From contig JAJFIX010000046.1 of NCBI GenBank assembly GCA_021774575.1, positions 124,001 to 188,000 of the forward strand: a DNA stretch of 64,000 nucleotides, written 5' to 3'. Below are positions 31,467-48,283 of this stretch, one piece after another. Numbering within the stretch: position 1 is the stretch's first letter; each line of letters begins with the position of its first letter. A model generated the notes under the pieces. The model did not search any database and was not told the origin of the DNA. It saw only the letters and a program-made list of their open reading frames with translations. The position numbers and the translations under genes are program-made. The DNA is from Alphaproteobacteria bacterium (GTDB lineage Bacteria; Pseudomonadota; Alphaproteobacteria; UBA6615).

Positions 31467-31492
31467 TTTATCACCTCTTTCGCAAAAATGCA

Positions 31493-31521
31493 GACGGCCG
31501 GGCAAATCTCGCCCGGCCGTC
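31493..31521 (-). terminator. Strong hairpin between two operon genes, possible terminator or attenuator
   Basis: A perfect 11-bp stem, GACGGCCGGGC with its complement and a seven-base loop, followed on the reverse strand by TGCATTTTT. It lies between the M24 homologue stop (31560) and the PEP-synthase-like start (31466), so some transcripts from the palindrome-controlled promoter may end here. Confidence 0.7.
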
Positions 31522-31559
31522 CATATGCACGTCACGTTGTTATCTAGAGACGCCGATCC

Positions 31560-32895: not shown

Positions 32896-32911
32896 AGTCC
32901 TTTATAAGACT
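32896..32911. promoter_or_regulatory. Palindromic operator copy 1
   Basis: AGTCCTTTATAAGACT, two changes from the perfect version at 48268. It lies 77 bases upstream of the M24 homologue start and 148 bases from the convergently oriented flavoprotein stop. Confidence 0.8.
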
Positions 32912-33059
32912 GTGACTGTTACCGGCCTTTCTTAGCCGATAACGCATGCGTGACGCAACGGCGAAGCCGACCATTTTGGTCGGATTTCTCCAAAATAAGT
33001 CATTTTTTGGTACGAGAGCGCCGCTTCCGCGCCATGGCGCGAATTTTCACAGTTCGGGA

Positions 33060-34754
33060 TCACAAAAGGGCGTTGGTTTCAAAGTGGATTGATCCGGGTG
33101 CGTGCTGGGTCAGTCGGGTCGCAACCCGCCAATTCTTATCGTCCGGGGCCGGAAAATCGATTCGAAAATGGGCGCCCCGGCTTTCTTCACGGTTTAATGC
33201 CGCAGTGCCGAGAATGCGGCCTAATAGGGCCAGGTTCGCCACAGATAGAGCACTTTCGAGCTCTTGACCCATGACTTTGGACGATGTCTGGGCGTTGTCG
33301 GAGAGGCGCATTTTGGGCACATCGTCACGTTCGATCCGCTCAAATCCGTCGATTGCGTCTCGGCATTTGGCGCCATCGCGAATCGGACCCAGTTTTTCGT
33401 GCGCCAGCAGTCGAATTTGCATCCTGATATCGGCCTGCAACGGACCGCTTCGCCTGGCGGTTAGCCCGGCGAGCCAATCCTGCGTCGATTCGGGGATTGA
33501 AGTCGGCGAAAGGGACGCTTTTGGACTATTGTTTACGGCGCGGGCCGCCTCCCGCCCGGCGCGGCGACCAAAGACCAGGGATGCAGATAAAGCTGACCCG
33601 CCAATTCTATTGCCGCCATGGATGCCGCCTGCGGTTTCGCCGGCGGCCCATAGCCCGGAAACCGGCGTTTGTCCATTTGCATCAATTTCCAGCCCGCCCA
33701 GCCAGGTATGGCTACCCGGTGCAACCTCCAGCGGGGTTTGGGTGATATCGATGCCGCGGTGGAGGCAGGTTTTATAGACGTGCGGGATCTGCTTGAGCAA
33801 CGTTTCCTTTGGAATTGCAGTTGCATCCATGAATATGCCGCCGGTCAGCCCGGCGCGGCCCGCATGAATTTCACGGGCCATCGCCAAAATGACTTCACTG
33901 CGGGTGCTGCGCTCTGCCGTATCAGGAAAATAGCGCTTCAGGAATTCTTCGCCGTCTTGATTGCGGAAAACTGCTCCGGCATTAATAAATCCGGTTGGGT
34001 GGGGGGCAAAGCCGAACAATTCCTTGGGTGAGCAGCACATTGCCTGGAAATCGATCATTTCGATCCCAATCAGCGGCGCGCCAGCGCGAAAGCCGAGGAC
34101 ATAGCCGTCACCCGTCACCTGAGGCGGGTTATCGTTGACGTAAAATAAGCCGCTACCGCCACCGGTACATAAGATCGTTTGGCGCGCCGAGTAGGAAACC
34201 AGAACGCCTGCTGCGTAATCGACCCCCCAAGCGCCAATGACTTTTTCATCTTGCTTGATCAAGTCGATAATCGATATCAACGAATGCTTTTCAATGCGCG
34301 CGTCGGCCCGCAGTTTGCGCGACAGGGTCTTGGTCACCATGTTGCCGGTCGTATCGTAATGGTGGACGGCGCGCGGATGGGTGTGGTTGGGAAATGGCTT
34401 GAGGTCGAGGTCGCCATTGTCGTCGGTGACGAATTCCGCTCCCCAGTCGCGCATATCGTTGACGATATCGATGATGCCGTGGGTCCATATTTCGGCCAAT
34501 TCCGGGTTTATCAATTCCCCGCCATGTTCGAGAATTTCAGCCAAATGCTGCTGTGGACTGTCGTCTTTACCCATTGCGGCGGCAAAACCGCCGCGCGCGA
34601 CTGTTGTCGTGCCGCTAGTAGCGCGTCCCTTGGTTGCTTGGACGACCCTAACCCCGGCTTCGGCGCACTCGAATGCGGCCATGCTGGCGGCGGCGCCGCC
34701 GCCGACGATCAGCACATCGGTTTCAAAGTGTCGGGTGACAATATCCAAAGCCAT
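33060..34754 (-). CDS. FAD-dependent oxidoreductase, fumarate reductase/succinate dehydrogenase flavoprotein-like
   Basis: The 564-residue protein has an N-terminal FAD site (DVLIVGGGAAASMAAFECAE), CTGGGSGLF, APHPTGF equivalent to the HPTG active-site motif, and HGGNRIGGSALSASLVFGRRAG near the C-terminal part of the FAD domain. The C-terminal helical domain resembles FrdA/SdhA and aspartate oxidase. No iron-sulfur subunit or cytochrome gene is near, so it is more likely a soluble alpha,beta-dehydrogenase or amine-type oxidase than a membrane complex. It follows the Tm-1-like gene by 17 bases, so both should be expressed together. Confidence 0.87.
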   Translation of the reverse strand: MALDIVTRHFETDVLIVGGGAAASMAAFECAEAGVRVVQATKGRATSGTTTVARGGFAAAMGKDDSPQQHLAEILEHGGELINPELAEIWTHGIIDIVNDMRDWGAEFVTDDNGDLDLKPFPNHTHPRAVHHYDTTGNMVTKTLSRKLRADARIEKHSLISIIDLIKQDEKVIGAWGVDYAAGVLVSYSARQTILCTGGGSGLFYVNDNPPQVTGDGYVLGFRAGAPLIGIEMIDFQAMCCSPKELFGFAPHPTGFINAGAVFRNQDGEEFLKRYFPDTAERSTRSEVILAMAREIHAGRAGLTGGIFMDATAIPKETLLKQIPHVYKTCLHRGIDITQTPLEVAPGSHTWLGGLEIDANGQTPVSGLWAAGETAGGIHGGNRIGGSALSASLVFGRRAGREAARAVNNSPKASLSPTSIPESTQDWLAGLTARRSGPLQADIRMQIRLLAHEKLGPIRDGAKCRDAIDGFERIERDDVPKMRLSDNAQTSSKVMGQELESALSVANLALLGRILGTAALNREESRGAHFRIDFPAPDDKNWRVATRLTQHAPGSIHFETNALL

Positions 34755-34771
34755 TTTGCCGTTAGCCTTTC

Positions 34772-36019
34772 TTATCTTTGTTGCTGCATCAGGTCTGCGA
34801 ACGCCTTCAGGCAGGCATCGGCAAATTCGGGATCATTGATATGGAGATCGAATTCTTCGATCCGGCCCCGCTTCAATTTCTTTTTAAGCGCTTGAGTAAA
34901 TGGCGCGTCGAACCCAGGCTCAAACCATGGTCCAAGGTCATTACCGTCGAGATCTTGGACCCGAAGGGTGCTTTGCTGACTAAAGCCACGCTTGGGGATG
35001 AGGACGGCAACGGGGCCCGTCGCCGCGTTCAACCGTTCGGCCATGAGCGCGCCGAGTTTTTCATATTCCTCTTCATTGGTCCGCATCAGCAAGTTTTCGA
35101 CACTGTAATGATGGAATTCCCGGTCTCGATACCGATCCGGGACTTCGCCGACCCACCAATTGGTGAAATCGATGGATCCGGGCACGATCACTTGCGCCAG
35201 TCCAGCCGCCCCAGCCGCGCGCAAACGGTCATCCCCGGCGCTGTAGACGCCACCGGTGATAAGATCGGTGAGTTCAGAAGTCGTAAAATCTATGACACCG
35301 GCTAACTCGCCGATACCGGCGAGATATTCCAGAGCCTTGCCGCCTGGGCCGGAGGCGTGAAACTGGATCACTTCAAAACCGTCATCGGTGAGCTTGCGGG
35401 TTATCCGGTTGACCGGCTCTTGCAAGTTTCCAAATGTTGAAATGCCGACAAGCGGCTGGTTTGCTGGTACTGCATCGGATGGACCGTGCCAGGCCGCTGC
35501 CATTCCGGCAATCGCGTGGGCGGCATTTTCGATGACGGCCCGGGTGATGCGATTAAGTGAAATATCGCCAATTGTTGGAAACATGATGATGTCGGATTGG
35601 GCGACGTGCCATTGGACTACGGCTGTTGCCGCGACAGGGGTGATCATTCCTTTGGGAAAAAGTGGGGGAAGGGCGCGCATCAGGGCGCAAGCCATGGTCG
35701 ATCCGTTTGCGCCGCCGATCCCGATGACCCCGGATATCTCGCCGCTGTCGAATTTTTCTTCCAAGGTCCGAATGCCGCCTTCGACCATTGTCGTCGCCGC
35801 CTCGGCCCGTGACATTTCAGCGATGGCGGTCCAAGTCGTGCCCGAGGCCTGGGCAAGGACGTCGCCGGAGACCGCACCCCAATCGTTTTCGTGGGGCCGT
35901 AAAGATAAATCGATGACCCAAGGGGTGATCCCAATGCGTCCCAGTGCATCGCAGAAAAACCGAACTTCTTCGGTCTTGCTGTCCAGCGTGGCTAATACGG
36001 CGATTTCTAGTTTCGGCAT
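34772..36019 (-). CDS. Tm-1-like ATP-binding domain protein (UPF0261)
   Basis: The 415-residue protein starts MPKLEIAVLATLDSKTEEVR, with GVIGIGGANGSTMACALMRALP, GMITPVAATAVVQWHVAQSDIIMFPTIGD, LVGISTFGNLQEPVNRIT and MLPKRG-like VLIPKRGFSQQ. These are UPF0261 landmarks. In plant Tm-1 this domain binds ATP and is fused to a PF09370 TIM barrel; here that barrel is a separate gene at 29269. The function in bacteria is unknown. The gene heads a two-gene unit with the FrdA-like flavoprotein, directly after a terminator. Confidence 0.9.
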   Translation of the reverse strand: MPKLEIAVLATLDSKTEEVRFFCDALGRIGITPWVIDLSLRPHENDWGAVSGDVLAQASGTTWTAIAEMSRAEAATTMVEGGIRTLEEKFDSGEISGVIGIGGANGSTMACALMRALPPLFPKGMITPVAATAVVQWHVAQSDIIMFPTIGDISLNRITRAVIENAAHAIAGMAAAWHGPSDAVPANQPLVGISTFGNLQEPVNRITRKLTDDGFEVIQFHASGPGGKALEYLAGIGELAGVIDFTTSELTDLITGGVYSAGDDRLRAAGAAGLAQVIVPGSIDFTNWWVGEVPDRYRDREFHHYSVENLLMRTNEEEYEKLGALMAERLNAATGPVAVLIPKRGFSQQSTLRVQDLDGNDLGPWFEPGFDAPFTQALKKKLKRGRIEEFDLHINDPEFADACLKAFADLMQQQR

Positions 36020-36088
36020 TGCAGTCGATTATCCAGCGAAATCATAATGCACAACGCTTATAGCCCATATCGAACGGTTCACGAAAAA

Positions 36089-36120
36089 GGGCCGGTTTGG
36101 TGTGTGTCCCAAACCGGCCC
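36089..36120 (-). terminator. Rho-independent terminator of the DRE-TIM gene
   Basis: A perfect 12-bp stem GGGCCGGTTTGG with its complement and an eight-base loop, followed on the reverse strand by five T residues. It closes the 36155-37378 transcript and separates it from the Tm-1-like unit. Confidence 0.92.
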
Positions 36121-36154
36121 GTATCGCAAAACCAAGATTGAAAACCCGAAAGGG

Positions 36155-37378
36155 TTAGGCGGCAAGCGTGTCCTCGGCGAGTTTCTTGAACTCGTCATTG
36201 GTCATCAAGCGCTTGTTGATCAGTCCCCAATCCTTGACCGCCATCAAGACAGTCATGGCTTGGTCGGCGTCGGCGGTGATCTGGTTGCGCGCCAGCCATT
36301 CCTTGCACGTATCGATGCCGCTGCCTTTGCCCATGACGGTCTCAGGCTCTTTCTGTCCGACCATTGAGGGGCGGAACGGGAACACGGCGGTTTGGTTTTC
36401 GTAGCCGCAATTTAGCAGCCAAGTGGCGATGATGCCGCTTTCAACCTTGAACAGGTCGTCGCCAACGATCGGGCGATTATTCGGGATGATGGCGCCCGAG
36501 ATCTGCTGGACCATATCGGCAAGACCCTTTAACTTCTCGGTCTTGATACCGATATCGATATTGTAGAGGGTTTTGAGTGCCATCACGGTCTCTTCCATTG
36601 GCACGTTGCCGGCGCGCTCGCCCAAGCCGAGTACGGTCGACTGGATGACTTCGACGCCTTCGGCGACGGCCATCAGCGTGTTGGCAACACCGAGACCGTA
36701 ATCCATGTGGAAATGAGCCTCAAGCGGCACGTCGATCCGGGCCTTCACGGCGCGGACAAAATACTGCATGGCGTGGATCGAGGTGGCGCCCATCGTGTCG
36801 ACCAGGGCCAAACCATCCATATGGCCTTCTTTTCCGACCTTGGTGATCAAGTCGAGCACCCAGGTGAGGTCGGACCGGGTGAAATCGATCGGGAAGAAAA
36901 TCACCTGCAACCCTTTTTCATGGGCATAAGCGGTGGACTCGATGGAGAGATCGATGGCCCGTTCGAGTTCCCAACGATAACCAAGTTCAATCAGATGCTT
37001 GCTCGACGGAACTTCCATGATAACGCCGCTGACGCCGCTATCGACGGCGCGCTGCACATCGTCGACCATGCAGCGGGCAAAGGCATAAATGTCGGGTCCA
37101 AAATCGCGTTTGGCAAGTTCCTCGACGACCCGTGCGTCGTCTTTGGAGACCACGGGCATACCCGCTTCGATACGGTGGACGCCAGCCTCGGCCAGACCTT
37201 CGGCGATCCGGATCTTATCGTCGAAATCGAACGCGAGTCCGGCTTGTTGCTCGCCATCACGCAGAGTGACGTCATGGATTTTGATCTGTTTTGGAAAATT
37301 GAACTGGGAGGTAACTTCGTCGGCGAAGTTCCAGGGCGATGTGTGCCAGTTCTCATTAATCCAAGGTGTATCGGTCAT
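36155..37378 (-). CDS. DRE-TIM metallolyase (isopropylmalate/homocitrate synthase-like)
   Basis: From ATG 37378 (GGAGAGAGACCC before it) the product has 407 residues. IKIHDVTLRDGEQQAGL is the DRE motif, AHFHMDYGLGVANTLMAV supplies the metal-binding HxH, and VLGLGERAGNVPMEE is the GxGERAGN block of 2-isopropylmalate and homocitrate synthases. These enzymes condense an acyl-CoA with a 2-oxo acid or cleave the product. The regulatory domain of LeuA is missing, and the surroundings are catabolic, so this is unlikely to be leuA; citramalate-, homocitrate- or HMG-like reactions are all possible. A palindrome lies 117 bases upstream. Confidence 0.85.
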   Translation of the reverse strand: MTDTPWINENWHTSPWNFADEVTSQFNFPKQIKIHDVTLRDGEQQAGLAFDFDDKIRIAEGLAEAGVHRIEAGMPVVSKDDARVVEELAKRDFGPDIYAFARCMVDDVQRAVDSGVSGVIMEVPSSKHLIELGYRWELERAIDLSIESTAYAHEKGLQVIFFPIDFTRSDLTWVLDLITKVGKEGHMDGLALVDTMGATSIHAMQYFVRAVKARIDVPLEAHFHMDYGLGVANTLMAVAEGVEVIQSTVLGLGERAGNVPMEETVMALKTLYNIDIGIKTEKLKGLADMVQQISGAIIPNNRPIVGDDLFKVESGIIATWLLNCGYENQTAVFPFRPSMVGQKEPETVMGKGSGIDTCKEWLARNQITADADQAMTVLMAVKDWGLINKRLMTNDEFKKLAEDTLAA

Positions 37379-37494
37379 GGGTCTCTCTCCTTTGATGGGG
37401 GCCATCTACTGGAAGTCAGTCGGCGGCTTTCGATGGGCCCCCCACGCGGCGCGCATATGAGGCCAATTACCTAGAATTTCGGCGGCAACATACC

Positions 37495-37510
37495 GGTCTT
37501 ACATAAGTCC
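37495..37510. promoter_or_regulatory. Palindromic operator copy 2
   Basis: GGTCTTACATAAGTCC, three changes from the copy at 48268. It lies 117 bases upstream of the DRE-TIM gene start, between that gene and the Ldh gene. Confidence 0.8.
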
Positions 37511-37566
37511 TGCAATGGCCAGTTGGGCCTTGCGTGACAAAATGAAGCGCAATTATGGAGTGTCGG

Positions 37567-38625
37567 TCAAAGGAGGGGTGAAATTGTGAGGTCCACAGCC
37601 ATTTCCGCCAAACCTTCGAGCAGAGCTGGGTGGACTGGAATTCCCGATTTTAATCGTGATCCGCGCAATTTAGCGCTGCGTTCGCCGGGCAATCTAATTT
37701 CCTCGACTCCGGGCAGGGTCGGCGAGGCCTTCATCGCATCGATAATTGCGTCGACTTGGGCGCCGAATTGGTCGATCTCGGCAAAATTGGCGATTGCCAG
37801 GGCACAGATGAATTGGCCGGTATTGGTCGTGGTTACGAAATCTTTGCTGAAATCAATCACGTCTCGACCCATTGCCGCACCGTTCAGCGTACCGGCAAGC
37901 AGGCCGAGCATTAAAGCTAGGCCGTATCCCTTTGCACCGCCGATTGGCAGCAGCAAACCCTCATGGGATCGCTGGGGGTCAGTAAGCGGTTTGCCCTGCC
38001 GGTCGACCATCCAGCCTTCAGGCATTTGTTCGCCCCGCTGGGCCGCGGTCTTAACCTTGCCATAGGACGAGACCGTCGTTGCCATATCGAGGACGATATC
38101 CCGGTGGCGGGAGGCGGGAACGGCGATTGAAATCGGGTTTGTCGATAACAGAAGCTCGGTCCCGCCCCAGGGCGGCATGTGATTGGCGCTGCCGACGGCG
38201 CCATAGATACCGATCATGTCGTGTGCCAGCGGCATGCGGGAATAGAGCATGGCCGGCCCAGCGTGATTGGAATTGCGCATACCAACCCAGCCAATACCAG
38301 TCTGCTTTGCCTTTTCGATTGCGATCTCGGTCGCCCGTGCGACGACCAAGTGTCCCATACCATTATCGCCGTCGATCAGGGCTGTGGCCGGTGCCTCGCG
38401 AATGATTTTTATTTCAGGATCAACGTTCATACCGCCCGCTTGGATGCGTTCTATGTAACCCGGCAGCCTAAAAACACCGTGAGTGTCGATGCCGTGCAGG
38501 TCTGCGTCCGCCATCAATTTCGCGGTTTGCTCCGCGCCGGAATTTAGAAATCCCACCGCCTTCAGCGCGTTGGCAATAAATGTCTCAAGCTCGGTCAGCG
38601 GGACTGTCGGCCAATCGTCGCTCAT
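37567..38625 (-). CDS. Ldh2-family malate/L-lactate/ureidoglycolate dehydrogenase
   Basis: The 352-residue protein has the family marks MADADLHGIDTHGVFRLPGY, MGHLVVARATEIAIEKA, VGMRNSNHAGPAMLY, LLSTNPISIAVPA, VLDMATTVSSYGKVKTAA and LPIGGAKGYGLALML. These NAD(P)-dependent enzymes interconvert 2-hydroxy and 2-oxo acids using a fold unrelated to classical lactate dehydrogenase. It overlaps the upstream cupin gene by four bases (ATGA), so the two are translationally coupled. The palindrome at 39105 should control both. Confidence 0.93.
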   Translation of the reverse strand: MSDDWPTVPLTELETFIANALKAVGFLNSGAEQTAKLMADADLHGIDTHGVFRLPGYIERIQAGGMNVDPEIKIIREAPATALIDGDNGMGHLVVARATEIAIEKAKQTGIGWVGMRNSNHAGPAMLYSRMPLAHDMIGIYGAVGSANHMPPWGGTELLLSTNPISIAVPASRHRDIVLDMATTVSSYGKVKTAAQRGEQMPEGWMVDRQGKPLTDPQRSHEGLLLPIGGAKGYGLALMLGLLAGTLNGAAMGRDVIDFSKDFVTTTNTGQFICALAIANFAEIDQFGAQVDAIIDAMKASPTLPGVEEIRLPGERSAKLRGSRLKSGIPVHPALLEGLAEMAVDLTISPLL

Positions 38626-39035
38626 TTACGGTCAACCAAGTCTTTGGGCGATAGATGCGCCACGGTTTCACCGGTCTCGGCAAAAGTGCGGGTTACTGTT
38701 TCCGACGCGTAAACCCACAATATGGTCAGTGGCCCATCTCCAGTATTGATAAAGCGGTGAGGGACACCAGCAGGTATGAAGGTCGTATCATTGGGGCCGA
38801 CCGTCTGGGTCTTACCTTCAATTTCGGCTTCCGCCGTGCCATCGAGGATGGTCACCTGTTCGTCGCAATTATGGCTATGGACGGGAACTTTCTTTCCGGC
38901 GGGGAATTTGGTTATACCCGAGGTGAACCCGGTGCCGCCAAAACGCTCCTTGCCGACAAGCAATGTCGTCTCGACCCCGTCTCCGCGCGCAAATACTGGT
39001 AATTCATCAAGCCTGAGCACCGCGCCGTTCGTCAT
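38622..39035 (-). CDS. Cupin-domain protein
   Basis: From ATG 39035 the product has 137 residues with a single beta-barrel cupin: GTGFTSGITKFPAGKKVPVHSHNCDEQVTILDGTAEAEIEG and PAGVPHRFINTGDGPLTILWVY. HSH, the following Glu and PHRF histidines form the usual metal site. Such small cupins act as isomerases, lyases or dioxygenases, or sense ligands; the substrate is unknown. GGAG lies ten bases before the start. The 3' end overlaps the Ldh gene by four bases. Confidence 0.9.
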   Translation of the reverse strand: MTNGAVLRLDELPVFARGDGVETTLLVGKERFGGTGFTSGITKFPAGKKVPVHSHNCDEQVTILDGTAEAEIEGKTQTVGPNDTTFIPAGVPHRFINTGDGPLTILWVYASETVTRTFAETGETVAHLSPKDLVDRK

Positions 39036-39104
39036 GACATTATTCTCCGTTTGGCCCCAACTTTGCGGCCCCAACACTGCTTCGTTGACAGTTTAGCATA
39101 GCCA

Positions 39105-39120
39105 AGTCTTATATAAGTCA
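39105..39120. promoter_or_regulatory. Palindromic operator copy 3, in a divergent promoter region
   Basis: AGTCTTATATAAGTCA, two changes from the copy at 48268. It sits 70 bases from the cupin start (leftward) and 41 bases from the Gfo/Idh start (rightward), so one site can control both directions, including the GntR gene itself. Confidence 0.85.
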
Positions 39121-39160
39121 TAGAATGAGTTCTAGATTTATCGAAACAGGGGTACGGGTC

Positions 39161-40222
39161 ATGAAGACGATCAATGTCGGTGTTATTGGGACTGGCTGGT
39201 GCGGTGGCATTCGCGCTGAAACTTGCGCGCGCAACGCGCTGGTCAAAGATTTGCACATTGCCGAAACCAATCCCGAGCGTCTCGCGGAAATGGTCAAAGC
39301 GACCAATCCGGTGACCGCAACCGATGATTATCAGGAATTGCTGGCAAATCCCGACATCGACGCCGTGATGATATCGGCCACCCCCGAGACCGTCCATTAT
39401 CCAATGACCAAGGACGCGTTGAATGCTGGCAAACATGTGCTGCTGGAAAAACCTTTTGCCCTTGAACTGGCCGAGGCCGATGAGCTTACCGAACTCGCCA
39501 AGGCAAAAAACCTGAAACTCTCCATCGCCTACTCTCAGCGGTTTAATCCCAAATATGCCTATGTAAAGCAGTCGATTGAGGACGGCACTCTTGGGGTTCC
39601 GGTGAGTGCGTTGGTCAGCCGCCATATCACCCGCAGTCTTGGCCAGAAAATTGGTGGCCGGATTAAATTGTCGCCGGCGGCGATGGAGGCCACCCATGAT
39701 CTCGATTTTGTGCTCTGGTGCATGGAGCCGGCAAAGCCGATCCGGGTTTATGCCCAAGCCGTCAATAAGGTGATGATGCCGACCCATGGCGTCGCCGATT
39801 GCATGTGGATCACCATAACCATGGATGATGGCACGGTGCTAAATGTTGGGGCGGGCTGGATCCTGCCGCCGGGCTACCCGAATTTTTCCGCGACAACGAT
39901 CGAGTTTATCGGGTCCGAAGGCGCTTTGATGATCGATGACAGCCATAAGGACGTCATCTTGAATACAATGTCTGACGGTATGCGCCTGCCGATGTCGACC
40001 ATGCCCGGTGAGCAGGTGTCCCATGTTTACGCCGGCCCGATGGCCGCCGAGACGGTATATTTCTGCGAGGCAGTTGCCTTTGATCGTCCGGTCATGGTCA
40101 AGCCTGAGCAAGCACGCCAGGTGATGGAGGTCTATATGGCCGCCGACATCTCGGCTGAAACCAATGAGCCGGTTTCCCTGCCGATCGCGCCGGAATTAAT
40201 TCCCCTGGCCATGGCGAGCTAG
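39161..40222 (+). CDS. Gfo/Idh/MocA-family oxidoreductase
   Basis: From ATG 39161 the protein has 353 residues. The Rossmann motif is INVGVIGTGWCGGIRAETCA, followed by ATPETVHYPMTKDALNAGKHVLLEKPFALELAEADEL, where EKP is the family's catalytic and nucleotide-binding hallmark. These NAD(P) enzymes typically oxidise sugars, inositol or their acids; the substrate here is unknown. It is the first gene after operator copy 3 and is followed 17 bases later by the GntR regulator, so the regulator is probably autoregulated through this transcript. Confidence 0.92.
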   Translation: MKTINVGVIGTGWCGGIRAETCARNALVKDLHIAETNPERLAEMVKATNPVTATDDYQELLANPDIDAVMISATPETVHYPMTKDALNAGKHVLLEKPFALELAEADELTELAKAKNLKLSIAYSQRFNPKYAYVKQSIEDGTLGVPVSALVSRHITRSLGQKIGGRIKLSPAAMEATHDLDFVLWCMEPAKPIRVYAQAVNKVMMPTHGVADCMWITITMDDGTVLNVGAGWILPPGYPNFSATTIEFIGSEGALMIDDSHKDVILNTMSDGMRLPMSTMPGEQVSHVYAGPMAAETVYFCEAVAFDRPVMVKPEQARQVMEVYMAADISAETNEPVSLPIAPELIPLAMAS

Positions 40223-40239
40223 GGGCGGAGGTTTCGACC

Positions 40240-41034
40240 GTGGCTGCGGGCAAGTCGATCACCATCCCTAAGGATACCAAATCTGCGGGGGCGAACAGAG
40301 CCGGGGCGAAACGCGCACCGGTGATGTCCGACCGCGCGCCGCTCTATGAGCAGGTTGGCTATTTCATTCGCCAACGCCTGATCGATAATTATTGGAAGCC
40401 GGGGACCGCCTTGCCGAGTGAGATCGAACTCGGCAAGGAACTCGGCGTCAGCCAAGGAACCGTGCGCAAAGCCCTGGATGATATGGTTGCTGATCATCTG
40501 CTGTATCGCCGCCAAGGGCTGGGGACTTTTGTTTCCGAATATACGGATCGACGGGCGCTCTATCTGTTTTTCAACTTGATGGATGAGCAAGGCACACGTG
40601 TTTTGCCAGAAAACAACATTCTTGAATGCGGTCCGCGAAAGGCGAGCAAGCTCGAATGTGACCGGCTACGGCTCAGGGCGAACGCAAAGGTGATTAGGCT
40701 CTCCCGGGTCCGATCGCTGAAAGGGGTGCCAACAATTCTGGAGACGATTTCAGTATCCCAGCGCCTGTTCCCCGGACTTGGGCGCGACGGCAATTTGCCC
40801 CCCCATCTTTATCGCCATTACCAAACCGAATACGGCATTTCTATTGCCAAGGCCGATGAGCGGGCGAGGGCAATAGCCGCATCCGATCAACAGGCGGCCC
40901 ACCTCAATGTTGAACCGGGCTCACCGCTGTTGGAAATAGAACGGGTGGCAATTACGCTGGATGCAAAGCCGGTCGAACTGCGGGTCAGCCGTTGCGAGAC
41001 CAGCGTCTATCAGTTCTGCGCCGAGCGAGGTTAG
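40240..41034 (+). CDS. GntR-family regulator, HutC subfamily; likely regulator of the island
   Basis: The 264-residue protein starts at GTG 40240 with GGCGGAGG upstream. The winged helix-turn-helix spans about residues 30-100 (APLYEQVGYFIRQRLI, LPSEIELGKELGVSQGTVRKALDDM, GLGTFVSE). The C-terminal part is a UTRA ligand-binding domain (VIRLSRVRSLKGVPTILETI, SPLLEIERVAITLDAKPVELRVS). HutC-type regulators bind GT-rich palindromes and release DNA on binding the pathway substrate. Five 16-bp palindromes with GT and AC ends surround this gene, so it is the natural candidate to bind them; this is inference. The stop overlaps the convergent hydroxyacid oxidase gene by four bases. Confidence 0.93.
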   Translation: MAAGKSITIPKDTKSAGANRAGAKRAPVMSDRAPLYEQVGYFIRQRLIDNYWKPGTALPSEIELGKELGVSQGTVRKALDDMVADHLLYRRQGLGTFVSEYTDRRALYLFFNLMDEQGTRVLPENNILECGPRKASKLECDRLRLRANAKVIRLSRVRSLKGVPTILETISVSQRLFPGLGRDGNLPPHLYRHYQTEYGISIAKADERARAIAASDQQAAHLNVEPGSPLLEIERVAITLDAKPVELRVSRCETSVYQFCAERG

Positions 41035-42107
41035 GTCAGCCGGTTGTCGGCGAGACCGGGAAACGCACTCATTTCGTGGGCGGGCCCGACCGCCGTCGCG
41101 GCTGCGGTGTAGGCGGGTGTTAGGTCTTGGATTTTGGTCACACCTAGATAGGCCATGGTCATTCTAAATTCCGCCGCAAGAATTTCTAAACTGCGTTGGA
41201 GGGTCTCGGCTCCACCGGCGCCGAGCGCCCAAGCCTGAAGTTTGCCGATTGCCACGGTGTCGGCGCCAAGGGCCAGGGCTTTAGCGATATCGGTGCCGCG
41301 CAGAATACCGCCGTCGAAAACGATCTCACATTTTCCTTTGGCGACGGCGGCAATTTCGGGAAGGCATTCAATTGTCCCGCGTCCATGGTCGAGTGTGCGG
41401 CCGCCGTGGTTGGAAACCCAAATCGCATCGACGCCGCGTGCAACGGCGATTTCTGCATCCTCGGCGGTGGTCAAGCCTTTGACCAGCAGGGGCAACCCCG
41501 CCGCGTCGCGATACCGTTCCAACCGGTCCCAGGTGAGCTTGTCTTGATTAATACGGTCTGGATTTGTCCGGTGTTTTGGTGCGATCCACCGACCAAGTTT
41601 GACATTTGCGCTGGGTGCCATCACGGCGGAATCGACACAAAATGAAAATGCCTTATAGCCGCATCCTTTGATCCGCCGCAGCATATCGAAGACCCATTCA
41701 TCATCACCTTGAATGTAAAACTGATAGAATTTATTGGTTTCTTCTGCGGATGCCCCTTCTTCGGGATCGGTCTGCGAAGTTGAACTTATGACCTGGACCG
41801 TGCCAAATTTTGCCGCGGCTCTGGCTGCTTCCACGGCACCTGCCGGGTGCATCTTTTTCATATTGCCCATCGGCGCGAGAATGGCTGGAATCGTAAGGTC
41901 ATGGCCGAGCAGCGTCCCACCGGTGTCGATATCGCTGACATCGCGCAACATGCGTGGGCGTAATGCTATTTGATCGAGGGCCAGCCGGTTGCGGCGCAGG
42001 GTCGTTTCAGATTCGGTCCCGCCGCCAATGAAATCCCAGATTTCCTGATCGAGGGATTTGTGCGCGGCTTCGATGATCTGCTGGTTGCTTGTGTAGTCTG
42101 TGCTCAT
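41031..42107 (-). CDS. FMN-dependent alpha-hydroxy-acid dehydrogenase/oxidase (LldD-like)
   Basis: The 358-residue protein has the glycolate oxidase/lactate dehydrogenase fold: WDFIGGGTESETTLRRN, PAILAPMGNMKKMHPAGAVE, LVKGLTTAEDAEIAVARGVD, the catalytic His in WVSNHGGRTLDHGRGTIE and FDGGILRGTDIAKALALGADTV at the FMN phosphate. It oxidises an L-2-hydroxy acid to the 2-oxo acid. No N-terminal membrane helix is seen. It diverges from a 3-hydroxyisobutyrate-dehydrogenase-like gene with 62 bases between them, with no palindrome in that gap. Confidence 0.9.
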   Translation of the reverse strand: MSTDYTSNQQIIEAAHKSLDQEIWDFIGGGTESETTLRRNRLALDQIALRPRMLRDVSDIDTGGTLLGHDLTIPAILAPMGNMKKMHPAGAVEAARAAAKFGTVQVISSTSQTDPEEGASAEETNKFYQFYIQGDDEWVFDMLRRIKGCGYKAFSFCVDSAVMAPSANVKLGRWIAPKHRTNPDRINQDKLTWDRLERYRDAAGLPLLVKGLTTAEDAEIAVARGVDAIWVSNHGGRTLDHGRGTIECLPEIAAVAKGKCEIVFDGGILRGTDIAKALALGADTVAIGKLQAWALGAGGAETLQRSLEILAAEFRMTMAYLGVTKIQDLTPAYTAAATAVGPAHEMSAFPGLADNRLT

Positions 42108-42169
42108 GCCGCGATAATAGCAAAAATTGGCTAGCGTGGGCCGAAATCATTGAACGAGGAACATGATAA

Positions 42170-43045
42170 ATGGAAGCGTCGGTCGGGATAATCGGTTTGG
42201 GCAATATGGGCGGTGGTATTGTGTCCGCCTTCCTCGAAAAGGGAGGCTCGATATTCCTTTGGGATATTGAGGCGACGGCGGGCGAAAAATTTGCCGATCG
42301 GGCCGGGGCAACTTGGTTGCCGCCTGCCGAAATGGCGGCCGAGGCAGATGTTATTTTGTTTGCGGTGCCATCTTCGCGTCAGATTGAACAAGTTTTTTTT
42401 GAAGGGGATGAGGTTCTTGGCGCCGCGACACCGGGGACAATTTTGGTCGACCTGACAACTTCCGATCCAGGATATACCAAGGACCTCGCATCACGCGCGG
42501 CTGCGGCAGGCCTTTTTTACCTCGATGCTGGGATGAGCGGTGGTGCCCAAGGTGCTGCCGAAGGGCGTTTGACGCTGATGATCGGGGGAGACGCCGAGAT
42601 ATTTGCCAAGGCGAAGCCGGTGCTTGAACATTTTGCCAAAGGGCTTTTTCATATGGGGCCTTCGGGGGCCGGCCACACGGCGAAACTTTTACAAAATATG
42701 GTAACCCATACGATTTTTCTGGCGACCTGCGAAGCTGGGCGGCTCGGGGAGCGGGCAGGTATTGACCTGTCGAAGCTGATTGATCTGTTCAATGTCAGTA
42801 ATGCTCGCTCGTTCATTAGTGAGCGGCGATTTCCCGATCATATCGTTTCGGAAAAATGGGACGGAAAATCGAGGGTTTTTAACCTGCATAAGGATTTGGG
42901 GCTGGCGGTAGAGATGGCCGAAGGTCTGGGCCTAACGTCGGCGTTTGGCCGAACGACCTTGGCAGCGCTGCAAAAAGCCGTCGATATGGGCATGGAAGAA
43001 AGTGATTTTACGCATCTCTATTCGGCCTATGAGGATTTGCGCTAG
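42170..43045 (+). CDS. 3-Hydroxyisobutyrate dehydrogenase-like beta-hydroxyacid dehydrogenase (first of two)
   Basis: The 291-residue protein shows VGIIGLGNMGGGIVSAFLEKG (NAD site), DLTTSDPGYTKDLASRAAA, YLDAGMSGGAQGAAEGRLTLMIGGD (substrate loop), and GPSGAGHTAKLLQNMV with the catalytic Lys. It oxidises a beta-hydroxy acid; tartronate semialdehyde reductase or a related reaction is possible. A second, distinct member is at 48352. It converges with the DctP-like gene with ten bases between stops. Confidence 0.9.
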   Translation: MEASVGIIGLGNMGGGIVSAFLEKGGSIFLWDIEATAGEKFADRAGATWLPPAEMAAEADVILFAVPSSRQIEQVFFEGDEVLGAATPGTILVDLTTSDPGYTKDLASRAAAAGLFYLDAGMSGGAQGAAEGRLTLMIGGDAEIFAKAKPVLEHFAKGLFHMGPSGAGHTAKLLQNMVTHTIFLATCEAGRLGERAGIDLSKLIDLFNVSNARSFISERRFPDHIVSEKWDGKSRVFNLHKDLGLAVEMAEGLGLTSAFGRTTLAALQKAVDMGMEESDFTHLYSAYEDLR

Positions 43046-43055
43046 GCCTTTGGTA

Positions 43056-43976
43056 TTAGGCGAGTGCGAGGTCGATCAGTTCTTGCCCCAATCGAGCGCT
43101 TTCCGCCTCGACGACCGGGGCAACCACCGTTTCAAAGGCGTTTCGCTCGTTTTCTGTGAGCTCCACGATGGCGTTTTTGACCGGGTCTAACTTTGCCAAA
43201 ACCTCGTCATCGCTGGCGCGGGCAAACCCGTGCTGGGCCGTTGTTGCAATTACCAGAGCTTCGCTTATGGCCGCCTGGACCTGTGTTCCCCATGAGTCAT
43301 AGCTTGGGGCGTGGGCCAGTACGGCGACAAATCCGAGAAAATGGCCCGACAAGGTAATGTGGCGGTGATGCTCATGGATCCCAAAATTATAAATATTGGA
43401 AAGCGGGTTATCTTGGGCGTCGACGGTGCCGGTTTTCACCGCGGCGGGCAGGTCCTTTACGTCGATGAATGTGGGGTCAAAGCCCATGGCCCGGAATGTC
43501 GCTTGATGCAGAGCGCTGTCGCCGGTGCGAATTTTTAGGTCCTGGCAATCGGCTGGGGTGCGAATTGGGTGAACGCCGTTGGTTATATGCCGGTATCCAT
43601 TATCCCAGAACCCAAGCAACCGGTAGTCAGAGTTTGCCGCCACACGTTCTTTTAGGTAATCACCTAATTCCCCATCGAGAGCGAAATAGGTACGCTCTCT
43701 ATCAGTCATGGTGAACGGCAGGTCGAGAGCCGCAATATCGGGAAAACGTCCGGCCAAATAACTGGTCGCAAAATAGCAAAAACTACGGCTTCCTTCCTCA
43801 ACCATGGTCAAAATTTCGGCGGCTTTGTGACCGCGTTCGGTCACGTTACCATCGAGCTCAAATGAAAGATCGTTGCCCAATCGTGCCTTGAGTTCGGCGC
43901 CAAAAATTTCGGCGGCCCGATTGTGAACCGATTGGGGCGGTTGGTAACCAGCTAGACTGAGGTGTAAGTCGTTCAT
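43056..43976 (-). CDS. DctP-like TRAP solute-binding protein without a signal peptide
   Basis: The 306-residue protein has the DctP/YiaO fold: LSFELDGNVTERGHKAAEILTMVEEGSRSFCYF, GRFPDIAALDLPF, IRTPADCQDLKIRTGDSALHQATFRAMGFDPTFI and the conserved QDNPLSNIYNFGIHEHHRHITLSGH. However, it begins MNDLHLSLAGYQPPQSVHNR, straight into the first beta-strand with no hydrophobic export signal. No dctQ or dctM gene is present. It starts inside the last codon of the upstream gene (four-base ATGA overlap). A cytoplasmic binding protein that senses or buffers the substrate is possible; a missed upstream start is excluded by the overlap. Confidence 0.82.
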   Translation of the reverse strand: MNDLHLSLAGYQPPQSVHNRAAEIFGAELKARLGNDLSFELDGNVTERGHKAAEILTMVEEGSRSFCYFATSYLAGRFPDIAALDLPFTMTDRERTYFALDGELGDYLKERVAANSDYRLLGFWDNGYRHITNGVHPIRTPADCQDLKIRTGDSALHQATFRAMGFDPTFIDVKDLPAAVKTGTVDAQDNPLSNIYNFGIHEHHRHITLSGHFLGFVAVLAHAPSYDSWGTQVQAAISEALVIATTAQHGFARASDDEVLAKLDPVKNAIVELTENERNAFETVVAPVVEAESARLGQELIDLALA

Positions 43977-44728
43977 TGCTCGTGTTCACCGATCGGCGGC
44001 CATATGCGCGTGCCGATGGAAGGAGAGCCTGGTGCATGCAAAGTGGTGCGCACGATTTTGCCGGTCCATTCTTTTTCGTTGAGGGCGAGCCCTTCATGGG
44101 GTTCCTCGAAGTTCTTCAGCCGGGCCTCAAGGCTGGTGAACTCATATAAGATTGCGTGCTTGATCCAGCCCGAAGCGGCGAGATATTTCCGGGTTGAAAT
44201 CGAGCCGGGCATCCGGGCCATGAACGGAAATCGATATTGGGCGTACCAGGACCCAAGCATCATTTCATCTTCATATTCCTTCATTCGGAAATTTCCGAAT
44301 TGGATCGCCGGACCCGGTGTGCCGCCGGGGGCGCGCTTATCGTACTCGGGACCGTTAATACGTTCTTCCTCGGCCAGTATGGCGGTCCTCAATTCGGTCC
44401 GGCGGCCAAGCATTTCCTGGGCTTTGGCATCTCGGTTTTCCGGCCGCCAGGCCGCGTTGGATTGGAAAAACATGTGAGGTGAGGCGGCACCGATCAACAT
44501 CACATATTGGGTGCCGGTGCCGAGGCTGGCCTCGTCGGTATAGGAAATAATCTTGTTTTGCACATGGGTCATGCCTTCGCCACCGCCCTCGATTTTATAG
44601 TGGGCGGCCCAGGCAATGCCAGGAGAAGCGGTCAGTTGGGGCAGGTAGCTCCCGTGAAGCCAGTCGATATAGTCTTGCGCGCCATCCTCGGCCAAATCGT
44701 ACCAGCTCGCCCAGACACCTCTGTCCAT
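43973..44728 (-). CDS. Unrecognised protein with two Dabb-like halves, coupled to the DctP-like gene
   Basis: From ATG 44728, with GGGAGATGGG upstream, the product has 251 residues and no signal or membrane segment. Each half resembles a dimeric alpha-beta barrel (Dabb/EthD) domain: WYDLAEDGAQDYIDWLHGSY at the N-terminus and GWIKHAILYEFTSLEARLKN, then GKIVRTTLHAPGSPSIGTRI at the C-terminus. I do not recognise a named family. A hairpin terminator lies just upstream, so this gene pair may have a separate promoter or depend on readthrough from tctC. The coupling suggests it acts with the DctP-like protein. Confidence 0.6.
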   Translation of the reverse strand: MDRGVWASWYDLAEDGAQDYIDWLHGSYLPQLTASPGIAWAAHYKIEGGGEGMTHVQNKIISYTDEASLGTGTQYVMLIGAASPHMFFQSNAAWRPENRDAKAQEMLGRRTELRTAILAEEERINGPEYDKRAPGGTPGPAIQFGNFRMKEYEDEMMLGSWYAQYRFPFMARMPGSISTRKYLAASGWIKHAILYEFTSLEARLKNFEEPHEGLALNEKEWTGKIVRTTLHAPGSPSIGTRIWPPIGEHEQ

Positions 44729-44770
44729 CACCCATCTCCCGAATATGTCGACTAATCTCGAAAAGAAAAA

Positions 44771-44797
44771 CGGGGCGGTATATAAAATACCGCCCCG
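44771..44797 (-). terminator. Rho-independent terminator of tctC
   Basis: A perfect 11-bp stem, CGGGGCGGTAT with its complement, a five-base loop, and on the reverse strand TTTTTCTTTT. It lies 27 bases past the tctC stop. Confidence 0.9.
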
Positions 44798-44824
44798 CAG
44801 TAACACTCAAGAGAGCGTTAGGTA

Positions 44825-45790
44825 TCAGCCGCCAACGAGGGCTTCAACCAATGACTTAAAGGCAGCACTTTGCGGTCCACGAAGGACCTCGTAGTCAGTG
44901 CCGTCCTGATAGGAAGAGATGTCTTCCTGCAAGTTGCTCATCAGGCGCTGATATGTGCGGTTATCATTCAAAGCACCAAATGCCTCACGTAGCGTTGCGA
45001 GATTTGCAGCCGGGATGTCTTTATGTGCAAAGACCACCCGCATCATGAAACCAAGATCCTCGGAAAGGCCGAGTTCGGAGAAGGTCGGGGCGCCAAACAG
45101 GCTTTCCGGGCCGCCAACACCGAGGGCGGTAACCTGGTCTCCGAACCGGTTTACGTTGGCCGGGAACATGATGGCAAAATCAACTTCACCTGTCACGATC
45201 GCCTGGGACAGCGGTCCGCCACCCTGGAAACCGACAAACTCGACTTTATCGAGCACGCCGCGTTCTTGAAGGATACGGGCACCCGGAACATGGGTCGCAC
45301 CGAACTGGCCGCTATGTCCGAACTTGATCGTGCCCGGTGCCGCCTCGATTGCTGCAATCAGCTCGTCGAGTGATGTCCAGCCGCGCGATGACTGGGAAAA
45401 CAAGACGTGGGGGGCAAAGTTGATACGAGCAACGGTGACAAAGTCATCGGTGTCATAGGGCAGGTCAGTCGCGTGTTTCTGCATCTGATCGAAGAAATTG
45501 TGCGAATAGAGCAGAACATGGCCGCTATGATCGGTGTTGCTGGCGAAAGCTTCTTGGCCAACAACGCCACCGCCGCCCGGAGTCGGGCGAATGATCATCG
45601 GTTGACCGAGCAAGTCAGCCATGACGCTGGAAAATGCGCGACCGGTCAAATCATGGGATCCGCCAGCGCCCATCGGCAAAATAACTTCAACCGGCTTGGA
45701 GGGGAAACCTTGGGCCAAGGCGACGCCAGCAGTCATAGTGACGGCGACAACTGCGCCCAATGCAGTGGTCGTGATATTACGAAGGTTCAT
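44825..45790 (-). CDS. tctC: Tripartite tricarboxylate transporter substrate-binding protein TctC (Bug family)
   Basis: The 321-residue protein has a signal peptide (ITTTALGAVVAVTMTAGVALA, cleavage after ALA) and the mature start QGFPSKPVEVILPMGAGGSHDLTGRAF, the Bug/TctC family signature. It captures a carboxylic acid in the periplasm for TctAB. The gene is on the same strand as tctA and tctB but has its own palindrome (45892) 101 bases upstream and its own terminator, allowing higher expression than the membrane parts. Confidence 0.93.
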   Translation of the reverse strand: MNLRNITTTALGAVVAVTMTAGVALAQGFPSKPVEVILPMGAGGSHDLTGRAFSSVMADLLGQPMIIRPTPGGGGVVGQEAFASNTDHSGHVLLYSHNFFDQMQKHATDLPYDTDDFVTVARINFAPHVLFSQSSRGWTSLDELIAAIEAAPGTIKFGHSGQFGATHVPGARILQERGVLDKVEFVGFQGGGPLSQAIVTGEVDFAIMFPANVNRFGDQVTALGVGGPESLFGAPTFSELGLSEDLGFMMRVVFAHKDIPAANLATLREAFGALNDNRTYQRLMSNLQEDISSYQDGTDYEVLRGPQSAAFKSLVEALVGG

Positions 45791-45891
45791 TTACCTTCCT
45801 CCCTGTTGGGACCCAGGCGGGTCATTCCGGCTCCGGAATTTCACCATGGGGCCTCTGTGATCGGCATCTTGAAAGTCGATGCCATTTTAAA

Positions 45892-45907
45892 GGTCTTATA
45901 GCAGACC
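45892..45907. promoter_or_regulatory. Palindromic operator copy 4
   Basis: GGTCTTATAGCAGACC, three changes from the copy at 48268 and extended by one matching base pair on each side (A at 45891, T at 45908). It lies 101 bases upstream of tctC. Confidence 0.8.
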
Positions 45908-46014
45908 TTATCGTTGTCGGCCATTTGAGGGCCGCATTATGTCAAACTTCGAATGTCGATAAAATCAGAAAATTCTACCGATCATCGAAATTATGCACCG
46001 TATTTTCGCCGTTG

Positions 46015-47538
46015 TCAGGTTCCTTCCGCCATACGTCGTCGTAATTTAACGGATCGGCGCCACAAGAAGTAGGCGATCAGTGGCGTTGCGATAAGGAACG
46101 CCAGGGCAATCGGCCGTGATGTCAGGAGATACGGGACCATTTCGCCGCTTGATAGCGCCAGGGTCTGGCTAAAAGCTTCTTCGAGTGGACGCGCGAGAAT
46201 GAATGCCATGGCCAAGGGCGCTACATCGAAACGCAATTTACGTAGAATGTAGCCCAGCACGCCAAAGAAAATGAGATAGATGATTTCAAAGGGCTGGTTG
46301 TGGAAAACCATCGAACCAGCAAAGGCAAAGATGATCGTCAGAGGAAGTAAAATGGATTTTCGAATTGTGACCAGGCGAGCAAACATAGGTATTGTCGCCC
46401 AGCCGATACCCAAGAAGAGTACATTAGCGATGACCATAGAAATTAAAACGGCGTAGACCATTGGGCCGCTTTCGATCATCAGCTCGGGCCCCGGCGTCAG
46501 ACCCTGAATCATAAATGCACCCAAGAGAATGGCAGTTACATTGTCGCCTGGAATGCCCAAAGTCAGCATGGGTACCATAGTTGGGCCGTTGACCGCATTA
46601 TTAGCGGTCTCGGCGGCGGCAATACCTTCCAGTTCACCGTGGCCGAAAGTCTCGGGATGGTCGGATGCATTTTTGGCTGCCGCATACCCCATGAATGCAG
46701 CGACAACCTGACCAACACCGGGAACCATGCCGATCCATGTTCCGATCATCGTCGAGCGGCACATGGTCTTGAAGCACCGCCGAAGATCGGCGCGTGTCAA
46801 CCGCTCGGTATTTCGAATGTCGATGCTCTTATCTCGAATATAGGATGCCGCGCGTTTTTCGACAGCTGAGAAAATTTCAGGCACGGCAAACAACCCGATC
46901 AGCATTGGCAAAATGGGAATGCCGCCGGTTAGTGGAAACCAGCCGAAGGTAAATCGGGTAATCAAGCCGATTGGTGCCGTGCCGATCATGGCAAAGCCAA
47001 TACCAATAAAGACCATTATCAAGCTCTTGATAAACAATCCGTTCGTCGTCGAGGCAATCACCACCAGTGACAAGATCAGGACGCTCATCAATTCCGGTGG
47101 GCCGAATTGCAGGGCGATATAAGCGATCGGCGCGATCATCACGATGGTAACGATATCACTGATAAAATCACCAAACACGGAGGCCGCTAGGCCCATTTCC
47201 AAGGCTTTTCGCGCCTTGCCCTGCTTGGTCAACGCGGGTCCGTCGAAGGTCGTCGCGACGGCAGCGCCGGTGCCGGGCATCGATATCAAAATAGCTGGTA
47301 TCGAGCCTCCATAGATGCCTCCCTTATAGATACCGATTAAGAAGGGAAGGCCGATCAACGGGTCCATGTTGAACGAAAAAGGCAGCAATATCGCCATCGC
47401 CATAATGGTCGTAAAACCGGGCAAGGATCCGACGAGCATACCAAAAAATAGGCCAATGGCGATCATGGCGAATATTCGGATCACCTCATCGCCGAAAACG
47501 AGCCCTAATCCACTGGTGAAGCTACCGAAAAGATCCAT
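46015..47538 (-). CDS. tctA: Tripartite tricarboxylate transporter large permease TctA
   Basis: The 507-residue protein has about 11-12 membrane segments and the family blocks GLFFGMLVGSLPGFTTIMAMAILLPF, GGSIPAILISMPGTGAAVATTFDG and GVGQVVAAFMGYAAAKNASDHPE plus PMLTLGIPGDNVTAILLGAF. It forms the transport channel with TctB, powered by an ion gradient. It follows tctB by 79 bases in the same direction, so the two share operator copy 5. Confidence 0.95.
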   Translation of the reverse strand: MDLFGSFTSGLGLVFGDEVIRIFAMIAIGLFFGMLVGSLPGFTTIMAMAILLPFSFNMDPLIGLPFLIGIYKGGIYGGSIPAILISMPGTGAAVATTFDGPALTKQGKARKALEMGLAASVFGDFISDIVTIVMIAPIAYIALQFGPPELMSVLILSLVVIASTTNGLFIKSLIMVFIGIGFAMIGTAPIGLITRFTFGWFPLTGGIPILPMLIGLFAVPEIFSAVEKRAASYIRDKSIDIRNTERLTRADLRRCFKTMCRSTMIGTWIGMVPGVGQVVAAFMGYAAAKNASDHPETFGHGELEGIAAAETANNAVNGPTMVPMLTLGIPGDNVTAILLGAFMIQGLTPGPELMIESGPMVYAVLISMVIANVLFLGIGWATIPMFARLVTIRKSILLPLTIIFAFAGSMVFHNQPFEIIYLIFFGVLGYILRKLRFDVAPLAMAFILARPLEEAFSQTLALSSGEMVPYLLTSRPIALAFLIATPLIAYFLWRRSVKLRRRMAEGT

Positions 47539-47617
47539 TTTACGCCTCGTGACCGGCCACAGGCCGTTCGTTCGAAATACGCGGGATCACCCCCGCTACT
47601 GAAAGCAACCTTGCCCG

Positions 47618-48229
47618 TTACTGAAACCAACCTTGAATGAAGTCGACGGTTGGCCCGACCCATTGTCGATATACCCATTCCATCTCGGGAGATTCGGGCA
47701 AGGACTGCAATAGATATCGGGTGAAGATGAGATAGATAAAGGCCGGCATCACAATGCTGACGATGACGCCGAGAATCCAGTTTCGATTGCCAAAAAAAGT
47801 GCTCAGCACAAAAATGAGCAGTACTGAGGGAATAAAAAACCCGATTTTAATTGCGCCCCAGTCAATCCCGATATGACGGCCTGCGACGTCGCCGATGACG
47901 ACAAAAACATAAAGCGATGTAACGCCAATTGTGACCAGAACATTGGTGATTGCCTCACGGTCCATTTCGGCAAACAAGTTGGTCTCGGAGAGCCTAAAAC
48001 TAATGGCAAAATAAATGCAGCTAATCAAAAACAAGCCGATTGCCACGAGCCGTGGGAAAAGCTCGGGATCGAGGTCGTTGCTGATACCGATGGTAATACG
48101 GGGTTTTTGGATCTGATATGGGATAATGATATAGAGGCCAATCGCCGCCGCTATGAGGATGAGCGCCACGACCGTATTAAAATTGAACCGCGTGCCGACG
48201 CCAGAACCGCCAGTAATTCCTTTAGCCAA
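47618..48229 (-). CDS. tctB: Tripartite tricarboxylate transporter small permease TctB
   Basis: The 203-residue protein has four predicted membrane segments (FNTVVALILIAAAIGLYIII, LFPRLVAIGLFLISCIYFAI, VTIGVTSLYVFVVIGDV, GAIKIGFFIPSVLLIFVLST) with an insertion after the first, the TctB pattern (ISNDLDPELFPRLV). It is the small membrane subunit of the TctCBA system. The palindrome at 48268 lies 39 bases upstream. Confidence 0.88.
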   Translation of the reverse strand: MAKGITGGSGVGTRFNFNTVVALILIAAAIGLYIIIPYQIQKPRITIGISNDLDPELFPRLVAIGLFLISCIYFAISFRLSETNLFAEMDREAITNVLVTIGVTSLYVFVVIGDVAGRHIGIDWGAIKIGFFIPSVLLIFVLSTFFGNRNWILGVIVSIVMPAFIYLIFTRYLLQSLPESPEMEWVYRQWVGPTVDFIQGWFQ

Positions 48230-48267
48230 GCCTTGGTCCTCCCTTTTCGCAGGGTCTACGCATTTTT

Positions 48268-48283
48268 AGTCTTATATAAGACC
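48268..48283. promoter_or_regulatory. Palindromic operator copy 5, the most perfect copy
   Basis: AGTCTTATATAAGACC, whose inner 14 bases GTCTTATATAAGAC are a perfect palindrome. It lies 39 bases upstream of tctB, a position where a bound protein would block transcription. Confidence 0.85.

Follow-up and report, generated by a model that had tools for sequence, protein, structure and literature searches.

A palindromic operator predicted for an SdhR-type HutC regulator in a catabolic island of an uncultured alphaproteobacterium

Genes and Palindromic Sites of the Island

The 64,000-nucleotide stretch analyzed here, referred to as the window (positions 124,001 to 188,000 of contig JAJFIX010000046.1, assembly GCA_021774575.1, Alphaproteobacteria bacterium), contains a catabolic island in which a GntR-type regulator is encoded at 40240, amid genes for a Gfo/Idh dehydrogenase, a tripartite tricarboxylate transporter (TTT), an M24-family protein, and a DRE-TIM metallolyase; five copies of a 16-bp palindrome accompany these genes (Table 1). 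The best overall explanation, to which we assign a probability of roughly 0.87, is that the 40240 protein, an SdhR-type GntR of the HutC subfamily, binds the palindromes and controls the island together with an unlinked ATP-binding cassette (ABC) transporter operon. Gene identities were checked against Pfam and NCBIfam. The 40240 protein matches PF00392 (E 1.2e-16) and PF07702 (E 3.5e-29), which places it in the GntR family, HutC subfamily, and it is the only UTRA-domain protein of the genome, which encodes three GntR proteins. No pathway name emerged from this comparison, as the island enzymes score below every NCBIfam cut-off, except for those of a UPF0261 subfamily that is uncharacterised and of a generic binding-protein model for tripartite ATP-independent periplasmic (TRAP) transporters.

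Table 1. Predicted operator sites and associated genes, in window coordinates.
Feature	Position	Strand	Remarks
Operator site 1	32896..32911	.	AGTCCTTTATAAGACT; 76 bp upstream of the M24-family ATG at 32819
Operator site 2	37495..37510	.	GGTCTTACATAAGTCC; 116 bp upstream of the DRE-TIM (HMGL-like) ATG at 37378
Operator site 3	39105..39120	.	AGTCTTATATAAGTCA; separates the divergent cupin-Ldh_2 and Gfo/Idh-gntR operons; kept before Gfo orthologs
Operator site 4	45892..45907	.	GGTCTTATAGCAGACC; 101 bp upstream of tctC
Operator site 5	48268..48283	.	AGTCTTATATAAGACC; 38 bp upstream of the tctB TTG at 48229
HutC-subfamily GntR regulator (GntR + UTRA)	40240..41034	+	recognition helix VSQGTVRKAL (SdhR-type); likely binder of all sites
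Gfo/Idh/MocA dehydrogenase	39161..40222	+	opens the operon ending in gntR; predicted core regulon member
Cupin_2 protein	38622..39035	-	divergent from Gfo; site 3 in common
Ldh_2 (malate/lactate/sulfolactate-type) dehydrogenase	37567..38625	-	downstream of cupin
DRE-TIM metallolyase (HMGL-like, isopropylmalate-synthase-like)	36155..37378	-	behind site 2, with a strong terminator-like hairpin after it
M24 metallopeptidase/creatinase-fold protein (DddP-related)	31560..32819	-	first gene behind site 1
PPDK_N + PEP-utilizers protein	30129..31535	-	behind M24
PEP_hydrolase-like TIM barrel	29269..30114	-	behind PPDK_N
tctC, TTT substrate-binding protein	44825..45790	-	behind site 4
tctA	46015..47538	-	behind tctB and site 5
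tctB	47618..48229	-	first gene behind site 5

The original prediction had placed five near-identical palindromes solely in control regions. All five were recovered, with 0–3 changes from AGTCTTATATAAGACC; all are intergenic, and the start codons lie 38–116 bases away (39 to 117 in the original prediction), those of M24, DRE-TIM, and Gfo having been picked by agreement with relatives. Site 3 is located 69 bases from the cupin start and 40 from the Gfo/Idh start. When up to three mismatches to AGTCTTATATAAGACC were allowed, the window yielded these five palindromic places and an extra match at 51515, compared with a mean of 0.09 in 100 shuffles, and the five palindromes are considered real. A matrix derived from 14 sites upstream of Gfo within the family, namely site 3 and 13 sites of relatives, ranks the five sites at the top of the window, with scores of 26.9, 21.1, 19.2, 16.1, and 14.8, the last being that of site 1; the next-best score, 12.8, falls at 51515 within a reading frame. 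This match was rejected as an operator since, although palindromic, it lies within coding sequence and scores below the five. The matrix was applied to the window, and whole-genome searches were IUPAC scans: RGTCTTATATAAGACY with up to two mismatches occurs at nine places in the 3.5-Mb genome, five of which are sites 1–5, and the background density of such matches is approximately one per Mb. A further candidate, the CTTATAGC at 36057, once read as a partial copy preceding the Tm-1-like gene, was discarded as evidence, as this 8-mer occurs four times in the window, including within site 4 itself and at the intragenic position 41652, and attains no high matrix score.

Co-occurrence of Regulator and Palindrome

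The family sample comprised 24 genomes, and an order-level search gave the same 24. Orthologs of the 40240 protein (53–60% identity) are present in 17 of them, own genome included, and their neighborhoods contain near-perfect palindromes upstream of the Gfo/Idh ortholog and also, in several relatives, in the space separating tctA from tctC, comparable to site 4. Before the Gfo ortholog (~60–62% identity), a site is present in every GntR-carrying genome with upstream sequence (15/15, own included; matrix scores 13–25), at a distance of 56–114 bases from the start; the three GntR-less genomes retaining Gfo have none there (matrix scores 2.8–5.8). Gfo paralogs (53–56% identity) display no convincing site, and places with 0–1 mismatches are confined to genomes having the regulator.

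The same association was found beyond the family. Among 385 genomes of the class, 12 homologs (32–48% identity) were found outside the family, to which a plasmid collection added further homologs, some of them annotated. Most of these homologs carry the helix VSQGT[VMA]RK and have a residue other than Arg where NagR has Arg38. When loci were selected by protein likeness rather than by site and GTCTTATATAAGAC was sought with up to two mismatches, the palindrome was present at 11 of the 14 loci with a VSQGT helix vs. none of the five with an S/A-VGT helix (Fisher p 0.005). Seventeen of the matches lie in intergenic gaps and two in called frames, one of the latter immediately upstream of gntR, where the frame was called too long, while 99 permuted palindromes of equal composition matched a mean of 0.3 of the 14 loci and a maximum of two. 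The palindrome-bearing neighborhoods vary; they include sulfolactate-type clusters with UxaA-family genes, Ldh enzymes, and SafE/TauE exporters, as well as MmgE/PrpD-like genes (judged from sequence) with TTT transporters. In Burkholderia, the homolog is encoded directly before sdhCDAB/gltA, again as judged from sequence, and a perfect TGTCTTATATAAGACA lies upstream of its gntR. The window protein, this Burkholderia SdhR-like protein, and the site-bearing homologs form one group in the tree (98/93), which also contains a long-branch trio with an altered helix and no site.

The assignment of the palindromes to the 40240 GntR, already suggested by the original prediction, is strongly supported, since regulator and site co-occur across genomes and with the recognition helix, and this protein is thus the predicted binder. 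It is highly unlikely that the sites are the real operator of another regulator encoded elsewhere, with the GntR a bystander: the same palindrome stands beside distant gntR homologs in unrelated neighborhoods in a manner linked to helix type, the published SdhR motif has an identical core, and the GntR-less genomes retain Gfo and not the site. What lends this alternative some weight is that binding by the 40240 protein is deduced from sequence, and that one relative (G023) encodes a second UTRA-type GntR, on a long branch and with an ordinary Arg helix (SRHTVRE), 1.4 kb from a perfect site; this site can more plausibly be assigned to the main regulator, working in trans, than to the second UTRA protein.

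Relation to Known HutC Systems and Recognition Code

In the core GTCTTATATAAGAC, GT and AC are 10 bases apart. The usual HutC palindrome, NyGTMTAKACNy, has a GT–AC distance of four bases and is not universal; the window operator departs from it in this spacing, which qualifies the reference made earlier to HutC GT...AC palindromes. SdhR, FarR, and NagQ are listed as exceptions to the usual palindrome (PMC4494728). SdhR is a HutC-subfamily regulator with the motif TCTTATGTCTTATATAAGACATAAGA (Suvorova et al. 2015, PMC4494728), the inner 14 bases of which are the window operator, i.e., the same 14-mer GTCTTATATAAGAC; it was omitted from the published protein–DNA correlation because its sites were not alignable with the others (PMC4494728). 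Besides this identical core, the window system shares with SdhR (Suvorova et al. 2012 and 2015) the UTRA effector domain, a connection to carboxylate metabolism, and the helix, which reads VSQGTVRKA in the sdh-linked Burkholderia homolog. Both the core and the helix VSQGTVRK with tree grouping beside the sdh-linked homolog place the protein in the SdhR-type branch. However, SdhR precedes succinate dehydrogenase genes, whereas the window gntR sits with Gfo/TTT/M24 genes; the outer TCTTAT/ATAAGA symmetry of the SdhR motif is not seen in the flanks of the five window sites; and the sdh-linked protein of Burkholderia, with which the window protein shares 37% identity, falls outside the window clade in the tree. 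On account of the missing adjacent sdh genes, the 37% identity, and the lack of outer boxes, the 40240 protein is best regarded as a HutC member of the SdhR type rather than as SdhR proper. The operator class is therefore known already, and of the claim that the regulon is undescribed, only its content and extension are new, as far as the literature searched shows: no account was found there of the regulon, of TCTTATATAAGA beyond SdhR (the sole source being Suvorova et al. 2015, PMC4494728), or of SuyR with such a motif.

GntR/UTRA regulators of sulfolactate-type clusters in Methylobacterium, Paracoccus, and Sinorhizobium, which comprise UxaA/SuyAB-like, Ldh, and hydroxyacid dehydrogenase genes and a SafE exporter, possess the same helix, with the same palindrome type near structural operons and gntR. 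These clusters often hold a TTT transporter and an Ldh_2 enzyme. However, no suyAB-like UxaA genes are present among the window genes examined (27407–49883), and the pathway differs.

The NagR dre-site is GTGGTCTAGACCAC. In NagR, Arg38 and Arg48 read G-5 and G-4 of GTGG, a wing glycine contacts G-7, and six bases separate the half-sites (PMC4333415). The window protein resembles NagR/YvoA and DasR in domain architecture, in the wing QG.GTF, and as a predicted dimer on a palindrome; the six-base spacing would also agree if GTCT is set in register with GTGG, the operator then reading G-7 T-6 C-5 T-4 followed by a six-base spacer. It differs in that their G-5 G-4 becomes C-5 T-4, their GT–AC distance is 4 rather than 10, and the guanine-reading arginines are replaced: across the family's 17 proteins, one of which is truncated at its beginning, the Arg38 position is Ile/Met/Phe and the Arg48 position is Gln, while the wing is kept. 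Among the 28 half-sites of the 14 Gfo-upstream sites, C-5, T-4, and T-3 are invariant, T-6 is present in 27, and G-7 in 24. Given the invariant C-5 and T-4 and the replaced Arg38 and Arg48, the base change falls where the reading residues have changed. Both the register and the residue–base contacts, in which Gln at the Arg48 position and a non-Arg residue at the Arg38 position would match GTCT vs. GTGG, are deduced from this comparison. We lean slightly toward the view that VSQGT-helix proteins form a distinct HutC specificity class, in which both guanine-reading arginines may have been lost together with the change from GTGG to GTCT and the operator code was kept while the pathways changed, among them succinate dehydrogenase, sulfolactate-type, MmgE/PrpD-type acid, and Gfo/TTT/M24 pathways, including the capture of a further catabolic module by site gain in this genome.

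Extent of the Regulon

The sites upstream of Gfo-gntR, tctC, and tctBA (3, 4, and 5) appear to form the conserved core of the regulon, whereas those before M24 and DRE-TIM (1 and 2) appear particular to this genome; the expected conservation in relatives thus applies to the former and not to the latter. In relatives, the M24 orthologs cluster with PPDK_N, FrdA-like, Tm-1-like, and often alcohol dehydrogenase genes away from gntR, and the DRE-TIM orthologs are found at yet another place, also away from gntR. In the present genome, both modules adjoin gntR and two of their control regions bear sites.

The regulon was formerly considered confined to the island; it probably extends to an unlinked operon of the NMT1-type ABC kind, after which SDR and TauD-family genes follow. 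Two near-perfect palindromes, CTTCTTATATAAGACC and TCTCTTATATAAGAGC, 25 bases apart, precede this operon (G000 contig 31:32075-32115; L015:10076-10116). In seven relatives that carry the regulator, its orthologs (50–55% identity) have one site, 28–38 bases from the start.

Several observations weigh against these assignments. The ABC operon lacks a site in five GntR-carrying genomes. The three GntR-less genomes retaining Gfo all belong to one genus, and the contrast they provide may reflect one evolutionary event. Three of the 14 VSQGT-helix loci (L197, L200, and L210) have no site at the threshold, and neither does L199, a near twin of L200. Furthermore, the relatives' orthologs of M24 (84–90%) and DRE-TIM/HMGL (77–80%) are site-free, so that sites 1 and 2 have no counterpart there and are judged by sequence likeness and position. 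This absence, the location of those orthologs away from gntR, and the low matrix score of site 1 would fit a regulon in which sites 3–5 alone are functional, with sites 1 and 2 being palindromes that have decayed or arisen by chance. We regard this as unlikely, because with a background of about one match per Mb, two chance matches in the gaps of one 15-kb stretch are very improbable, and both sites are 6/8 palindromic, at 76 and 116 bp from start codons.

Other places also resemble members of the regulon. A weaker site, GGTCTTATAAAAGAGT, lies ~24 bp before a ChrR-like cupin gene (L017:7861; G000 contig 16:160860), and a look-alike of this cupin in G010 is located beside an M24/PPDK_N/FrdA-like/Tm-1-like cluster. 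In G023 (L104:8436; contig 2:160435) and G003 (L094:163), a perfect or near-perfect site precedes a gene that weakly matches the Asp/Glu racemase family and is a candidate for an extra regulon member.

Proposed Mechanism

We propose that a dimer of the 40240 GntR binds the 16-bp palindrome RGTCTTAT/ATAAGACY at the five island control regions, as well as the tandem sites before the unlinked ABC-transporter operon, most likely repressing transcription until the UTRA domain binds an imported carboxylate or a pathway intermediate. Site 3 would control both the cupin-Ldh and the Gfo-gntR operons, and since it serves the latter, the regulator would control its own gene. Repression is suggested by the regulator's family, by the closeness of sites 3 and 5 to start codons, and by the divergent pair that site 3 serves, and a carboxylate effector by the family and by the TTT transporter of the regulon, which is of a carboxylate-importing type. 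That the protein acts instead as an activator or dual regulator is rather improbable: sites 1, 2, and 4, at 76–116 bp before start codons, leave room for an upstream position, and promoters are not confidently placed, but sites 3 and 5 are only 38–40 bp before start codons, and described HutC-subfamily members, such as NagR, are mostly repressors. A promoter scan over the island gave 13 hits vs. 10.5 in shuffles, i.e., shuffle level, and was not used as evidence.

The five-site observation hence becomes a testable regulator–operator pair and suggests a binding code for a HutC branch left out of the published correlation study. Genes whose role is unknown (M24/PPDK_N/PEP-hydrolase-like, DRE-TIM, Gfo/Idh, TTT, and the NMT1-TauD ABC operon) are also brought together in one predicted regulon of uncultured alphaproteobacteria, and this helps to narrow down the substrate they share.

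Neighboring Genes

Strong terminator-like hairpins (12 pairs) are present on the minus strand at 36089–36120, after DRE-TIM, and at 44770–44798, after tctC. Their positions suggest that DRE-TIM and tctC are each transcribed alone and that the Tm-1-like/FrdA-like and the 277-aa/DctP pairs are served by site-free promoters of their own. The 277-aa protein (43973–44806) has no Pfam or NCBIfam match; in many relatives it is conserved at ~50% next to Gfo, DctP, and Tct genes. Its neighbor, a DctP-family (TRAP) binding protein (43056–43976), displays no visible signal peptide at its start and has no adjacent TRAP membrane genes, and it may be cytoplasmic; DctP orthologs with a similar start (e.g., L091 and L096) stay beside the 277-aa gene in relatives.

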